Source: an uncultured Litorilinea sp. (GTDB lineage Bacteria; Chloroflexota; Anaerolineae; Caldilineales; Caldilineaceae). Taken from it: DNA of 8,493 bases. Positions 2,366 to 8,065 of the stretch are shown in pieces. The notes beneath the pieces were generated by a model. That model did no database searches. It was not told the DNA's origin and was given only the letters and a program-made list of their open reading frames with translations. Every line of letters starts with the position of its first letter. Position 1 is the first letter of the stretch. The stretch lies in contig CAMPHP010000095.1 of assembly GCA_946885925.1 (NCBI GenBank), positions 1 to 8,493 of the forward strand, written 5' to 3'. The position numbers were made by a program, and so were the translations under genes.

Positions 2366-3484
2366 ATGTCCTCGTCAACGACGCCATCCTCCCCTGTTCG
2401 CGTGGGACTGATCGGCGTAGGTGGTATTTGTGGCTTTGTCCATTATCCTGGGCTGGAACGAATTCCCGGAGTAGATATTGCGGCACTGGCGGATCCCAGC
2501 GCAGAGTTATTGGAAAGACGCCAGCGAGAATGGGAAGTGGATCATATTTATCAGGACACGGCGCAGATGTTGGCCGAGATCAAGCCTGATGCCGTCGTAA
2601 TTGCCACACCCAATAATGTGCACAAGCAGTTGATCTTCCAGGCATTGGACGCTGGCTGTCATGTCTTGTGCGAAAAGCCGTTGGGTATGGATTATGCCGA
2701 AACCGTGGAGATCTACGAGTATGCCAAGCGTTCTGGCAAGCGGCACATGATGGCCTTCACCTATCGCTATGTGCCCGCCATGAACTACATTCGCCACTTG
2801 ATTCATTCGGGCCAACTGGGCGAGATTCGCCATGCTCGTTTCCAACGTTTGCAGGATTGGGGCGAGTTTGCGATTGGCTGGCGTCAATATAAGGCGATGG
2901 CTGGATCGGGTGAGCTAGGCGATATGGGCATCCATCGCATTGACTTTGCCCAAGACCTGATGGGGCCAATTAGCGCAGTGGCTGCATCGGCCAAGCAACT
3001 GGCCCAGCGCGACCGTACCAAAGATGGTCAAAGCGTGCCGCCCCAGGATGTAGAAGATTGGGTAGCGTGGATTGCGGAGTTTAAGAGTGGCGCAACCGGG
3101 GTCTTTGAGATGGGCAAGTTGACCAAGGGACAAGGCCCCAAAGGCGACCATGATTTGGCCGAGTTCAATGGCACCGAAGCCTCTGCGGCCTATCGCCTCC
3201 ATGCACCGCATGAGATTCTCTTTGCCCGCCGCGGTGAACCCTATCAGCCCGTACCTGTGCCCCAGGAATTCTTGACGCGACCTGGCTCACCGCGCGATCC
3301 CAACGAGGGCGACCCCAACCAGGTCTTCCGCTTTGACCAGGCATGGGAGTTTATCAGTGCGATTCGCGAGGGGCGTGACCCCAAACCTTCGTTCTATGAG
3401 GGAATGCGCGCCCAGGCCGTGGCAGACTCCATTCTGATCGCAGCCGCCGAGCGTCGCTGGGTGGATGTGCCGGACGTGCCGTAA
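2366..3484 (+). CDS. Gfo/Idh/MocA family NAD(P)-dependent oxidoreductase
   Basis: A 372-residue cytoplasmic dehydrogenase that would oxidise a sugar, inositol or sugar derivative with NAD(P). The N-terminal Rossmann fold opens with VRVGLIGVGGICG (residues 11-23, GxGxxx nucleotide loop) and has the VVIATPNNVH strand at 77-86. The family-defining EKP motif is CEKPLGMD (E103, K104, P105), with K104 the expected catalytic lysine. The C-terminal alpha/beta domain carries GELGDMGIHRIDF (residues 182-194) with the catalytic-site D186, H190 and D193 pattern. Length is normal. It is paired with the upstream isomerase/epimerase, which suggests a two-step route on one ring substrate such as oxidation to a keto-sugar followed by isomerisation. 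Substrate identity cannot be assigned from motifs. The next gene is convergent, so the operon ends here. Confidence 0.94.
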   Translation: MSSSTTPSSPVRVGLIGVGGICGFVHYPGLERIPGVDIAALADPSAELLERRQREWEVDHIYQDTAQMLAEIKPDAVVIATPNNVHKQLIFQALDAGCHVLCEKPLGMDYAETVEIYEYAKRSGKRHMMAFTYRYVPAMNYIRHLIHSGQLGEIRHARFQRLQDWGEFAIGWRQYKAMAGSGELGDMGIHRIDFAQDLMGPISAVAASAKQLAQRDRTKDGQSVPPQDVEDWVAWIAEFKSGATGVFEMGKLTKGQGPKGDHDLAEFNGTEASAAYRLHAPHEILFARRGEPYQPVPVPQEFLTRPGSPRDPNEGDPNQVFRFDQAWEFISAIREGRDPKPSFYEGMRAQAVADSILIAAAERRWVDVPDVP

Positions 3485-3526: not shown

Positions 3527-3602
3527 CAGAGAGACTCCTACGCGCCCTGGGCGCACCCGACAAAACAGGTTGGCCTGTCATGCCTATGGCATGACAGGCC
3601 AA
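3527..3602. repeat. Degenerate copy of the cloverleaf repeat, with 15-bp perfect hairpin
   Basis: 3527-3542 (CAGAGAGACTCCTACG) is the exact reverse complement of the inner 16 nt of the left arm of unit 4 in the 6640-6935 array, and then breaks off. GCGCCC-T-GGGCGC (3542-3554) is a further small palindrome. The main hairpin pairs 3570-3584 with 3588-3602 perfectly (15 bp) around a TAT triloop. Its core is CTGTC, then ATGCC-TAT-GGCAT, then GACAG. That equals the outer stem and right-hand hairpin of the array element with the rest deleted. The 14 nt at 3588-3601 are identical to 6692-6705. It lies between two convergent stops (3484 and 3606) and may serve as a bidirectional transcript end. CCTGTTTTG follows the stem on the minus strand but there is no good U-tract on plus. 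Confidence 0.75.
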
Positions 3603-3810: not shown

Positions 3811-3849
3811 GTAGATACCAGGCGTAAATACCAAGTGTAGATACAAAGC
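3811..3849. repeat. Three tandem 13-bp repeats upstream of the DUF1059 gene
   Basis: GTAGATACCA (3811), GTAAATACCA (3824) and GTAGATACAA (3837) recur with an exact 13-bp period. They begin 20 nt upstream of the DUF1059 start, in its promoter or 5' UTR, so they may be regulator sites or a slippage-derived repeat. Confidence 0.75.
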
Positions 3850-4434: not shown

Positions 4435-6540
4435 ATGGTTCAAAAAAGTCGTGTATTAAGTAAGTTTGTCTTCCTGCCGCTCTTACTGGTCACGTTAATG
4501 ATCATTGCGGCTGCCTGTGGCGATGGCCCACCCCAAGGCACCGCGCCGGAGCCGGCTGCTGTCCCTGCGGAAGGTGGCGAACAAGCCGCGGCTGACCCTG
4601 CGGCCCCTGTCGATGAATATCAGGCGCAACGCGAAGCCTGCACCACGGAAAGCCCCTGCTGGCCTGACATTGCGGAGACCGTTCCCACCGAGTTCAACGA
4701 AGCTCCTAGCCTGGCCGAGCGAGTAGCCAGTGGCGATCTCCCCCCAGTCGAAGAACGACTTCCCGTGGACCCCTTGGTCATCGAACCCACGGAATTGACC
4801 GGTGAATATGGCGGCATTTTACGCGGTGCCTTTACAGGCCCTGGCGACCGCCAAAATTATGAACGATGGATCAACGACTACACCATCTTCTGGGATGCCG
4901 GTGCCACCGAATTGCGCCCTCGTCTTGCCAAGCAATGGGAAGCGAATGAAGATGCTAGCGAGTGGACAATTTACCTGCGCGAAGGCTTAAAGTGGTCGGA
5001 TGGCGAACCGTTTACCTCCGATGACTATCTCTTCTGGTATGAACACATTGTCCAAAATCCCGATTTAGTACCTGCCATTCCGTGGTGGATGCAATGGGGT
5101 GGCGAGCTAGCCACATTTGAGAAGATAGATGATGCCACCTTCAAAATCATCTTTGCCGAACCATTCCCGACTTGGCCCGTAAATCTAGCTTCCTCCACCG
5201 TAGCAGGTCATCTGCAAGGCGGGCGTACAGGCGGCGGTCTCTATGCGCCACAACACTATCTAGAGCAGTTCCATCCGGATTTCATCGGCGAAGAAGAAGC
5301 TACGGCGATGGCCGAAGAGGCCGGTTTTGATAGCTGGAGTCTCTTCTTCCTTGCTATGAACGACGCAGCCATGAACCCGGATGCGCCGGTGATGGCTCCC
5401 TGGAAGCCAACGACAATTCTGGCGTCGGATGAACTCGTTTTCGAGCGCAACCCCTACTTCTGGGCCGTTGACACCGAAGGCAACCAGTTGCCTTACTTTG
5501 ATGGCATTTCCTTGGAATTGGTCGAGGAGTTAGAGGTACTTAACCTGCGCGCCATTGCTGGTAACTACACCATTCAAGGTCGCCACATTGACTTCTCAAA
5601 GTTGCCCGTGATTCGTGAGAACCAGGCCCAGGGTGATTACTTTGTGGATTTCTGGCTCAGTGGTACCCGCCACCCGGTCAAGGTTGCCTTTAACATGGAC
5701 TGGAACGAAGACCCGGCTACGGCTGAGTACACTGTCCACAGTGTAGAGTTCCGCCGCGCGCTGTCGCTTGCGATTGAACGTGAAGAGATCAACGAGACCT
5801 TCTTCCTTGGGGTTGGCACTCCGGCTTCGCTCTGCCCTGCCGATACGCCTCCCTATTACAATGAAAGCCGCTGGGATGAAGAATGGGGTCAGTTTGATCC
5901 CGATACCGCCAACCAAATCCTTGACGAGATCGGTCTGGATCAAAAGGATGCCGAGGGCTATCGCTTGTTACCCAATGGCGAACGGTTGACGTTGCGGTTG
6001 GATGCGGTCAGTGGCTCGTTCCTCGATTACCCCAGCATTGGCGAGCGCATCGCCCAAATGTGGGCCGAGAATGTTGGCATCTATATGACCATCAACCCGG
6101 TAGAGCGCAGCCTTTGGATCGAACGATCCGAAGCGAACCAGCCGATGATGAGTATCTTTGAGACAGGTGAGTTTAACCCGGAAGCATTGCCTCGCCTGCT
6201 CCCCTCTGAGCGCTGGGCCCCCGTCGCACAAGATTGGGCGAACAATCCCAACCCCGATCCGGCAGCCTATGACGGGCCGCAGTGGGTCAAGGATCTCGTC
6301 TTGAAGCACTGGGAGGCGATGAAGGAAGTAGACCCGGAGAAGCGCCGCCAGTTGCTTATCGAGGGTACGGAAATCATGTGTGACAACCAGCCTCGCCTTG
6401 GTATTGTGGTGGATGTGCCGGTCTATACCACGTTGATCAAGAACAATGTACGCAATGTACCCAAGCCATTTGAATGGGTCGTCTATGCCCAAACACCTGG
6501 CAACGGCCTGCCCGAACAGTTCTTCATGATCCAAGAGTAA
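4435..6540 (+). CDS. Opp/Dpp-family ABC transporter substrate-binding lipoprotein (SBP_bac_5)
   Basis: A 701-residue extracytoplasmic solute-binding protein of family 5 that would capture ligand and deliver it to the permeases encoded downstream. The N-terminus is a lipoprotein signal: basic MVQKSR, a hydrophobic core at about residues 11-27, and a lipobox ending AAAC with lipidated C28. Residues 29-60 are a low-complexity Ala/Pro/Glu/Gly linker. The family core begins near residue 125. It includes LRPRLAKQWEAN (160-171) and then WTIYLREGLKWSDGEPFTSDD (177-197), which is the classic SBP_bac_5 signature. NPYFW (339-343) and PYFDGI (353-358) mark the lobe-I return. It is longer than typical DppA/OppA (about 530-550), partly through the linker. 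The start is fixed by GGAGG at 4424-4428 with a 6-nt spacer. The nearby sugar enzymes suggest a carbohydrate ligand, as in some Opp-like sugar transporters of thermophiles. Ligand identity is not determinable here. Confidence 0.93.
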   Translation: MVQKSRVLSKFVFLPLLLVTLMIIAAACGDGPPQGTAPEPAAVPAEGGEQAAADPAAPVDEYQAQREACTTESPCWPDIAETVPTEFNEAPSLAERVASGDLPPVEERLPVDPLVIEPTELTGEYGGILRGAFTGPGDRQNYERWINDYTIFWDAGATELRPRLAKQWEANEDASEWTIYLREGLKWSDGEPFTSDDYLFWYEHIVQNPDLVPAIPWWMQWGGELATFEKIDDATFKIIFAEPFPTWPVNLASSTVAGHLQGGRTGGGLYAPQHYLEQFHPDFIGEEEATAMAEEAGFDSWSLFFLAMNDAAMNPDAPVMAPWKPTTILASDELVFERNPYFWAVDTEGNQLPYFDGISLELVEELEVLNLRAIAGNYTIQGRHIDFSKLPVIRENQAQGDYFVDFWLSGTRHPVKVAFNMDWNEDPATAEYTVHSVEFRRALSLAIEREEINETFFLGVGTPASLCPADTPPYYNESRWDEEWGQFDPDTANQILDEIGLDQKDAEGYRLLPNGERLTLRLDAVSGSFLDYPSIGERIAQMWAENVGIYMTINPVERSLWIERSEANQPMMSIFETGEFNPEALPRLLPSERWAPVAQDWANNPNPDPAAYDGPQWVKDLVLKHWEAMKEVDPEKRRQLLIEGTEIMCDNQPRLGIVVDVPVYTTLIKNNVRNVPKPFEWVVYAQTPGNGLPEQFFMIQE

Positions 6541-6639: not shown

Positions 6640-6701
6640 CTGTCACCCCGTAGGGGTCTCTCTGCCCACGTTGGCCCAGAGAGATGCCTACGGCATGACA
6701 G
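6640..6701 (+). repeat. Cloverleaf repeat unit 1 (reference copy, 62 nt)
   Basis: Reads as four perfectly paired helices meeting without unpaired junction bases. Outer stem CTGTC (6640-6644) pairs with GACAG (6697-6701). The left hairpin is ACCCC-GTA-GGGGT (6645-6657). The central stem CTCTCTG (6658-6664) pairs with CAGAGAG (6677-6683) around a 12-nt loop. The right hairpin is ATGCC-TAC-GGCAT (6684-6696). The two 25-nt arms are also 21/25 complementary, so one long hairpin is an alternative fold in this copy. Confidence 0.88.
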
Positions 6702-6711
6702 GCCACGCAGT

Positions 6712-6774
6712 CTGTCACCCCGTAGGGGTCTCTCCGCTCTGCGCGCCCCCAGAGAGATGCCTGCGGCATGACAG
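6712..6774 (+). repeat. Cloverleaf repeat unit 2
   Basis: Same architecture as unit 1, 10 nt downstream of it. Outer stem CTGTC/GACAG, left hairpin ACCCC-GTA-GGGGT, central stem CTCTCCG/CAGAGAG with one C-A mismatch and a 13-nt loop, right hairpin ATGCC-TGC-GGCAT. The triloop differs from unit 1 by one base, while the stems of both side hairpins are unchanged. Confidence 0.87.
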
Positions 6775-6784
6775 ACGCGTTGCT

Positions 6785-6863
6785 CTGTCACCCTGGAAGG
6801 GTCTCTCTGCTCTGCTGCAACCCCAGAGAGATGCTTGCCCTTACAGGGGGACCAGCATGACAA
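6785..6863 (+). repeat. Cloverleaf repeat unit 3, expanded right hairpin
   Basis: The left hairpin is ACCCT-GGA-AGGGT, a paired C:G to T:A change relative to unit 1. The central stem is CTCTCTG/CAGAGAG with a 14-nt loop. The right hairpin has become ATGCT (6831-6835) with AGCAT (6854-6858), again a compensated pair. Its 18-nt loop contains a nested CCCT-TAC-AGGG hairpin (6838-6848). The outer stem keeps 4 of 5 pairs, ending GACAA. Confidence 0.85.
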
Positions 6864-6875
6864 ATGCATGTCGCC

Positions 6876-6935
6876 CTGTCACTCCGTAGGAGTCTCTCTG
6901 GGACACAATAGTAGAGAGACCCCTGGGGGTGACAG
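6876..6935 (+). repeat. Cloverleaf repeat unit 4
   Basis: The left hairpin is ACTCC-GTA-GGAGT (6881-6893), another compensated C:G to T:A pair at a different position. The central stem CTCTCTG (6894-6900) pairs with TAGAGAG (6912-6918), the last pair being a G-U wobble, around an 11-nt loop. The right hairpin is ACCCC-TG-GGGGT (6919-6930), unlike the ATGCC type of units 1 and 2 but still fully paired. Outer stem CTGTC/GACAG is intact. Confidence 0.87.
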
Positions 6936-7001
6936 AGGGCTTACCGGCTTAAATTGCTAAGGATCAATGATCCCCCGGCGTCTCACCCCATCATGCCTTT
7001 T

Positions 7002-7040
7002 GCTCCTAGTTTTAGCTCCTAGTTCTTGTTCCTAGAAGGA
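7002..7040. repeat. Three tandem 13-bp repeats leading into the permease ribosome binding site
   Basis: GCTCCTAG at 7002 and 7015 and GTTCCTAG at 7028 recur with an exact 13-bp period. The third copy ends in AGAAGGA (7034-7040), the likely Shine-Dalgarno of the permease. The repeat number therefore changes the sequence just upstream of translation initiation. Confidence 0.75.
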
Positions 7041-7047
7041 TGTGCAG

Positions 7048-8031
7048 ATGCTGAGGTATCTCACAAAACGGATGGGCTATGGACTGCTTACCATCTGGGC
7101 TGTCTCCATCCTCTCTTTTGTCATTATTCAACTTCCCCCTGGCGATTATGTCACTTCCTATATTGCCGCCCTAGAGGCACAAGGGGGAGAAGTGGCTGAC
7201 GAAGAAGCCGCCAGCTTGCGTGCCCAATATGGGTTAGGCCAGCCTATGTATGTCCAGTATGGCAAATGGATTGGACAAATTCTGCAAGGCAACCTGGGCG
7301 TTTCCTTCCAATACCGCGTGCCTGTAGCGGATGTGATTGGCGAGCGCCTCTTGCTCACCATCATACTCGCTCTGGGCAGCGTGCTCTTTGTCTGGATAAC
7401 AGCTATCCCCATTGGCATCTTCTCCGCGGTTCGCCAATATTCATTGCAAGACTACCTTGCCACCACGATTGGCTTTATTGGTCTTGCCGTCCCCGACTTT
7501 TTGCTGGCCCTGGTGATGATGTACTTTGCCTGGGATCTTTGGGGGTTTAGCATTGGTGGTCTCTTCTCGCCCGAATATGTCACCGCACCGTGGAGTTGGG
7601 GACGGGTATCAGACCTCCTCCAGCACATGGTCATCCCCATTATCGTCCTCGGTACATCGGGTACTGCCGCGCTCATTCGTATTACCCGTGCTAATCTGCT
7701 GGATGAGCTACGCAAGCCCTATGTGACCACAGCTCGCGCCAAAGGGATGAGCGAATGGCAATTGATCTTCAAATATCCGGTGCGGCTGGCCTTCAACCCT
7801 ATTATCAGCATGACTGCCTATATCCTGCCCTTCCTGGTGTCGGGTAGCGTGATCGTCTCTGTCGTACTTAACTTGCCTACCTTGGGGCCTGTGCTGCTGC
7901 GCTCCTTGTTATCACAGGACATGTTCCTGGCTGGCTCCATCATCTTAATGATCGGCGTGATGACAGTGATCGGTACACTGCTTTCCGATATTCTGTTGGC
8001 ACTGGTTGATCCCAGGGTTAGACTCCAATAG
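7048..8031 (+). CDS. Opp/Dpp-family ABC transporter permease, DppB-type
   Basis: A 327-residue inner-membrane permease that with a DppC-type partner would form the translocation pore. TM1 is at about residues 10-30, followed by PPGDYV (30-35), the DppB-type PGD motif. The extracytoplasmic segment carries GLGQPMYVQYGKW and GNLGVSF (81-87), both family hallmarks. Further hydrophobic helices lie at about 103-128, 139-161, 193-210, 255-276 and 294-320. The cytoplasmic EAA loop, which contacts the ATPase, is TTARAKGMSEWQLIFKYPVR (227-246) with the conserved Gly at 233. I start at ATG 7048 rather than the in-frame GTG at 7042, because AAGGA (7036-7040) would leave only 1 nt before the GTG but 7 nt before the ATG. 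The gene is flanked by triplicated short repeats on both sides. Confidence 0.94.
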   Translation: MLRYLTKRMGYGLLTIWAVSILSFVIIQLPPGDYVTSYIAALEAQGGEVADEEAASLRAQYGLGQPMYVQYGKWIGQILQGNLGVSFQYRVPVADVIGERLLLTIILALGSVLFVWITAIPIGIFSAVRQYSLQDYLATTIGFIGLAVPDFLLALVMMYFAWDLWGFSIGGLFSPEYVTAPWSWGRVSDLLQHMVIPIIVLGTSGTAALIRITRANLLDELRKPYVTTARAKGMSEWQLIFKYPVRLAFNPIISMTAYILPFLVSGSVIVSVVLNLPTLGPVLLRSLLSQDMFLAGSIILMIGVMTVIGTLLSDILLALVDPRVRLQ

Positions 8032-8065
8032 ATCAGACTCCATTAGATCGGACTCCAACAGACGG
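8021..8065. repeat. Three tandem 15-bp repeats spanning the permease stop codon
   Basis: GACTCCAATAGATCA (8021), GACTCCATTAGATCG (8036) and GACTCCAACAGACGG (8051) follow each other directly. The first copy contains the last codons and TAG stop of the permease. Because the period is a multiple of three, copy 2 places another TAG in the same frame (8044-8046). Confidence 0.85.

Follow-up and report, generated by a model that had tools for sequence, protein, structure and literature searches.

Four tandem TGTC-tagged, REP-like hairpin dimers between two transporter genes of an uncultured Litorilinea species

The window analysed in this study is the whole 8,493-nt stretch of DNA from an uncultured Litorilinea sp. 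(Chloroflexota), and it carries a gene for a solute-binding protein followed on the same strand by a permease gene. An array of four tandem units lies within the 501-nt gap separating these two genes, at 6640-6935, with start-to-start spacings of 72, 73 and 91 nt. Bit scores in the list below refer to model R1, which was built from 20 elements (4 from the window and 16 from the Caldilineaceae bacterium SJ28 draft genome).

3527..3542, minus strand: half-unit remnant CGTAGGAGTCTCTCTG, adjoining the double-tag hairpin
3571..3601, minus strand: single double-tag hairpin, CTGTC-ATGCC-ATA-GGCAT-GACAG
4435..6540, plus strand: upstream gene, extracellular solute-binding protein family 5 (PF00496)
6640..6701, plus strand: unit 1, head-to-head dimer, 81 bits
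6645-6657: unit 1 left hairpin, ACCCC-GTA-GGGGT
6684-6696: unit 1 right hairpin, ATGCC-TAC-GGCAT
6712..6774, plus strand: unit 2, 74.2 bits
6717-6729: unit 2 left hairpin, ACCCC-GTA-GGGGT
6757-6769: unit 2 right hairpin, ATGCC-TGC-GGCAT
6785..6863, plus strand: unit 3, 60.2 bits
6790-6802: unit 3 left hairpin, ACCCT-GGA-AGGGT
6831-6858: unit 3 right hairpin, ATGCT-(18 nt)-AGCAT, loop-expanded
6876..6935, plus strand: unit 4, 68 bits
6881-6893: unit 4 left hairpin, ACTCC-GTA-GGAGT
6919-6930: unit 4 right hairpin, ACCCC-TG-GGGGT, with a 2-nt loop
7042..8031, plus strand: downstream gene, permease (PF00528, PF19300)

The initial annotation had described four tandem cloverleaf units with compensatory changes between them; the coordinates, the R1 scores and an excess of hairpins over shuffled sequence confirm the units, and every stem change that it listed is present. 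GNA-triloop hairpins of at least 5 bp occur six times on the two strands of the window, every one inside the array, against a mean of 1.15 and a maximum of 4 in 100 shuffles of the window, and a half-unit pattern defined by its flanking letters gives 7 matches (one with 2 mismatches) where 0.61 would be expected. Two stems need to be redrawn in part. The TGTC/GACA portion of the proposed outer stem CTGTC/GACAG stands, but its extra C-G pair does not (25 against 23.2 in shuffled sequence, 53 relatives) and is broken in unit 3, where the stem reads CTGTC/GACAA; the central stem CTCTCTG/CAGAGAG holds in general but not in unit 2, in which the sixth pair is broken (CTCTCC/AGAGAG). Complementarity just beyond the outer stem is slight, exceeding shuffled sequence at 2 of 6 positions. 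The double-tag hairpin at 3571..3601 gave no match to model R1 at E 0.001; it may have arisen from a dimer that lost its centre, and it can be compared with the double-foot idea (PMC6006769). The window also contains short tandem repeats of 13-15 nt at 3811-3849, 6998-7035 and 8020-8062, the last of which overlaps the end of the permease gene.

Each unit is made of two directional half-units joined head to head, and each half-unit reads, from 5' to 3', TGTC, one strand of a 5-bp stem, a loop with G and A at its two ends, the other strand of the stem, and CTC. The first base of the stem is A and the second T or C. When the parts are drawn as a cloverleaf, the TGTC tags form the outer stem and the CTC tails form the central stem of two facing REPs. 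In the direction from TGTC to CT, the first loop base is G and the last is A in 146 of 152 half-units whose 5-bp stems are perfect, drawn from five genome groups (window 7/7, SJ28 30/33, G002 and G003 together 39/40, G062 4/4, G065 66/68), and likewise in 40/40 half-units of 20 representative elements, a set for which perfect side stems were required and which covers 20 of 21 chosen loci, G122 being without a complete pair. This rule holds across loop lengths of 3 to 35 nt: most half-units of the window and SJ28 have 3-nt loops, those of G002, G003 and G062 mostly 9-35 nt, and those of G065 3 to 31 nt, and in G003 and G062 the longer forms add an inner stem atop a G..A mismatch. DNA hairpins with a GNA triloop are highly stable, owing to a sheared G-A pair. 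The CTC tail is found in the window and in most relatives, and GTAG is present in the loop of some units, not at the foot. Head-to-head dimers make up most elements; single half-units also occur and were left out of the count.

A first pattern scan of genome contigs returned 25 stretches, 20 of them in SJ28. Searching SJ28 with model R1 gave at least 37 distinct places at E<=0.1 and at least 32 at E<=0.001 (68 matches with both strands counted), a lower bound since 150 of 2404 first-look candidates were scored. Matches occur in at least 5 of 61 genomes comprising SJ28 and its relatives, SJ28 being one of the five, and two others, G035 and G044, each resting on one weak or odd element. The wider model R2 detected the family at E<=1e-6 in at least 26 of 151 evenly drawn Chloroflexota genomes and in at least 12 of 39 genomes around Chryseobacterium gambrini (Bacteroidota), again lower bounds with part of the first-look candidates scored; it also gave a match at 1e-3 in an acidobacterium, and found the family in 2 of the five other genomes from the first scan. 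The element is patchy in both Chloroflexota and Bacteroidota. Viral contigs held no match to the element pattern. Tandem arrays occur elsewhere, with four units at a period of 77 in G122 (L261), and with a period of 75 in G141 (L262), where two copies carry CGTC tags and two more GGTC; the same architecture under CGTC tags joins the TGTC family to the CGTC REPs.

Several copies have neighbours of other kinds. Two SJ28 copies, in L024 (about 3080-3200) and L042 (about 1470-1600), lie within a larger shared repeat, so that the element is either nested in that repeat or part of it, and others (e.g. L014, L019, L021 and L025) stand beside heptad repeats of the CATCCCT/CATCCTT type. The G003 element at L104 1485-1583 is nested in another simple hairpin, TGTCATTCC..GGAATGACA. 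In Chryseobacterium gambrini, 16 matches at E<=0.01 are spread over 11 kb (L188 3279-14385), a stretch of ordinary genes plus an OLD-like AAA/TOPRIM gene, with no transposase in the 9 ORFs scanned there.

Dispersed copies made it possible to ask by covariation which fold is kept, the side hairpins of the cloverleaf or a long hairpin of left arm against right arm. In the MAFFT alignment A1, the cloverleaf has 95.0% paired cells against 90.3 in shuffles, 7 pairs with both sides changed against 3.8 (1/500) and a covariation of 0.181 against 0.094±0.011 (0/500), further pair types being no commoner than in shuffles (13 vs 13.7), and the long hairpin has 86.2% paired cells, 7 pairs changed on both sides against 4.9 (27/500) and no covariation excess (0.107 vs 0.098±0.009, 94/500). 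The seeds of A1 came largely from a pattern permitting only certain stems, and two freer tests were therefore added. The first used 33 elements from the window, SJ28, G002 and G003 located by the anchors TGTC, CTCTC, GAGAG and GACA, after 13 of 46 had been dropped since each contained another; loci L005, L007, L012, L016, L023, L095 and L096 are excluded, one or two poor rows are kept (L038 mis-anchored, L107 doubtful), and the set, its loci having been fetched by similarity search, is not entirely unbiased. Among these elements the side hairpins pair in 92.7% of cells (G-T allowed) against 77.8±1.5% shuffled (0/5000), and the long hairpin in 78.5% against 76.6±1.5% (622/5000). The second took CTGTCA-N-TCTCTC matches genome-wide in SJ28 at 11-nt spacing (33/48, two probable chance hits kept) and found 151 of 165 positions in Watson-Crick pairs against 115.9±5.2 shuffled (0/10000), the pattern itself setting one of the five pairs (A-T), also in the shuffles. 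Shuffle tests overstate significance because the copies share kinship, and the eight perfect stem types within the anchor set alone are the independent point. A model-fitted alignment, A2, includes both strands of many elements and was for this reason kept out of the covariation counts, serving solely to build model R2; a fuzzy regex parse of the elements, the first attempt, was discarded as too noisy.

The dispersed copies with compensatory changes in their side hairpins bear out the earlier suggestion of a REP-like element, and the covariation test that it had proposed gives an excess in the side hairpins and little or none in the long hairpin. Its stronger statement, that the four-way fold is maintained, is supported for the pairing of the side hairpins but not for the cloverleaf as a whole. 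Covariation cannot test the outer stem, TGTC/GACA being near-invariant. Beyond CT the central stem has 69 of 120 pairs against 42.1±5.1 shuffled (0/10000) in the representative elements, and it reaches at least 6 pairs in 8/20 of them only. The SJ28 copy in L042 is completely paired when drawn as a long hairpin, but its two side hairpins contain mismatches (3 and 4 of 5 pairs form, G-T included), and a copy in L001 has a mispaired left hairpin. In 7/7 elements folded, the computed minimum-energy structure is more stable than the constrained cloverleaf, the difference being 5 to 18 kcal/mol for DNA and 3 to 25 for RNA (unit 1 as DNA, -21.6 vs -14.7 kcal/mol); that structure is an imperfect long hairpin for units 1, 2 and 4 and a different fold for unit 3. 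Since the side hairpins covary but the cloverleaf is disfavoured energetically, it is the single hairpin that appears to be kept, and a standing cloverleaf is unproven. In our reading, constraint acts on one tagged hairpin at a time, and a cloverleaf results when two such hairpins face each other.

With respect to movement, flank duplications are not in excess, since duplications of at least 3 bp flank 11 of 53 elements against 12.6 shuffled and those of at least 4 bp flank 1 of 53 against 3.4 expected, nested elements having been left in the test. The initial annotation had pointed to a REP-associated tyrosine transposase as a possible mobiliser, and no regular partner of this kind emerged: a copy at E<=0.01 lies within about 1.5 kb of a Y1 gene at 3 of 92 loci (L228, L283 and L285), a raw count among the matches listed, in which L287 and L291 are one gene and thresholds varied between searches. 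One Y1 gene of G003 has a copy 2.1 kb away. The copy-bearing genomes G002, G200, G168 and G232 gave no Y1 match, and these drafts may be incomplete. SJ28 has a REP-type Y1 gene of its own flanked by other repeats, and at this locus (L139 4400-5260) the long inverted flanking repeats include GCCGGAGGCTAAAGCC and CGCCCCCTAAACGGGGC parts.

Of 32 Bacteroidota Y1 loci, 14 have at least two GNA-triloop hairpins near the gene; the unmatched control pieces, taken from mixed genomes and with hairpins after TGTC excluded, gave 1 of 69. The loci concerned include L208, L210, L212, L215, L218, L221, L227, L231 and L242, and GCTCCGTAGGAGC is an example of such a hairpin. They are rarer elsewhere, at 5 of 30 loci around the relatives of SJ28 and 0 of 3 in G062, which rules them out as general companions of Y1 genes. 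Their presence around the Bacteroidota genes makes hairpins with such an apex plausible substrates of the enzyme class, those of the TGTC family being candidates.

The array is absent from the gap of the same gene pair in three of three relatives, SJ28, G002 and G003, in which the binding protein is 84, 77 and 77% and the permease 91, 83 and 83% identical to those of the window; none of the model matches listed for these genomes falls in the gap. The gap is about 165, 130 and 100 nt in these genomes, respectively, against 501 in the window, and each (L243, L244, L245) has its own long stem-loop of unrelated sequence; folding z-scores are -3.25, -0.92 and -3.87 for the relatives and -15.3 for the window, so the G002 stem-loop is not unusual for its composition. 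Insertion of the array in the lineage of the window is, as far as these sequences go, the simpler reading, with loss in the relatives possible. Relatives without the array but with unrelated hairpins in the gap suggest a 3' barrier on the mRNA, and such a barrier below the binding-protein gene would be consistent with gap sequences that differ but serve one structural purpose. The array is probably transcribed within the operon, in which it would act as a 3' barrier shielding the binding-protein mRNA, with more binding protein than permease as the expected outcome. In E. coli, a REP lies between malE and malF, and the binding protein exceeds the permease.

We favour, with somewhat better than even confidence, a composite explanation in which the array consists of four TGTC-tagged REP dimers whose hairpins are recognised and copied as single strands, with tandem duplication and a 3' barrier role following. 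A protein would recognise each REP as a folded single strand at replication, and the REP would then be copied; the most likely agent is a Y1 (HUH) single-strand transposase that works in trans or has meanwhile disappeared. The four copies at the window site would have arisen afterwards by tandem duplication. Compensatory changes without function might instead come from templated mutation, that is, misaligned synthesis in small palindromes (quasipalindrome correction). The near-perfect side hairpins beside a freely drifting long hairpin are what such a process would leave, and L042 resembles its action on a long palindrome; however, such mutation alone would not preserve the unpaired G and A at the ends of loops of 3 to 35 nt through three phyla in 146 of 152 half-units, nor a fixed TGTC and CTC, and we regard it as an unlikely account.

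Selection as a structured RNA module, with the cloverleaf or two hairpins acting in the transcript, would suit an array in a likely operon whose relatives have other stem-loops in the same gap. Yet copies occur in all gene orientations, the element is nearly symmetric across the two strands, its presence is patchy, and Rfam holds no family for it above the gathering cut-off, returning only microRNA models far under their cut-offs; we consider this reading improbable. Among 51 copies, 27 lie between tandem, 9 between convergent and 6 between divergent genes and 9 within ORFs, on naive ORF calls, and these classes are not clearly different from those of all gaps (35, 9, 11) and are uninformative. 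A plain long palindrome, serving as terminator or cruciform with the cloverleaf incidental, is the minimum-energy fold in most units and would explain why left and right stems of an element are alike at 89 of 100 positions against 73.7±3.1 shuffled (0/10000, the representative elements), a likeness by which the two halves are seen to stay related within a genome. But arm-to-arm covariation is not in excess in copies of SJ28, G002, G003 and the window, and the two stems differ, each being self-complementary, in 8 of the 20 representative elements (for which perfect side stems were preset), so that we give this reading little credence. A MITE of a DDE insertion sequence, to which inverted ends, dispersal and the two copies nested in a larger repeat could point, is very improbable given that target-site duplications were not found, the transposase survey having covered Y1 only.

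Among known systems, the malE-malF REP of E. coli, which belongs to another sequence family, likewise has palindromes separating a binding-protein gene from a permease gene in a transporter operon. The window site and its counterparts in the relatives form a natural contrast between an operon that has the array and operons that lack it. GTAG REPs and REPINs are directional hairpins with a 5' tetranucleotide, often inversely paired (PMC6006769, PMC8266576, PMC3116915), and RAYT or TnpA-REP recognises loop and foot in a strand-specific way (PMC6006769, PMC8266576); the REP of S. maltophilia has a 3-nt loop which matters for cleavage (PMC8266576). The window family shares the directional, tagged and often inversely paired hairpin, but the foot is TGTC instead of GTAG (or GTGG), and whereas RAYT genes are flanked by copies of their REPs, a regular RAYT partner was absent in the genomes examined.

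The closest likeness is to the CGTC REPs, which according to the excerpts of PMC3733652 have an unpaired tag, CGTC, often TGTC or, as a further form, CCTC, are abundant in some genomes and uneven over phyla, and apparently have no dedicated transposase. Most occur as head-to-head dimers, in many cases heterodimers for which the paper sees 'no obvious explanation', and the components might fold separately or as one stem-loop (PMC3733652). For Chloroflexi, the excerpted text names GTAG repeats and not CGTC repeats (PMC3733652), and no paper on a family with TGTC tag, G..A loop and CTC tail was found in the open-licence literature. The initial annotation did not recognise the family, which is nevertheless recognisable and, judged by its sequence, is a variant of the CGTC/TGTC-tagged REPs as these excerpts describe them (PMC3733652). 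We tentatively suggest, as a possibility well short of even, that CGTC/TGTC REPs are single-strand substrates read through a G..A-closed hairpin apex, with the Bacteroidota Y1 enzymes or their relatives as mobilisers in trans; if they are so read, selection on each hairpin alone would explain the heterodimer puzzle. Tracing the constraint to each hairpin and its G..A loop closure in three phyla provides a defined single-stranded candidate substrate for Y1 proteins. The differences from the published family lie in the stem (8-9 bp with AT at the first two positions there, 5 bp here), the loop (4-5 nt there, 3 or 9-35 nt with G..A ends here) and the tail, which there mostly, not always, fits CCA and here is CTC (PMC3733652), and the tag, unpaired there, can pair with that of its partner in the window dimer. 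Shared are the lack of a transposase association (here for Y1 only, in the raw count given above), the tag itself, TGTC in the window half-units and CGTC in two copies of the G141 array, and the stem starting with A, the short tail and the head-to-head dimers (PMC3733652).
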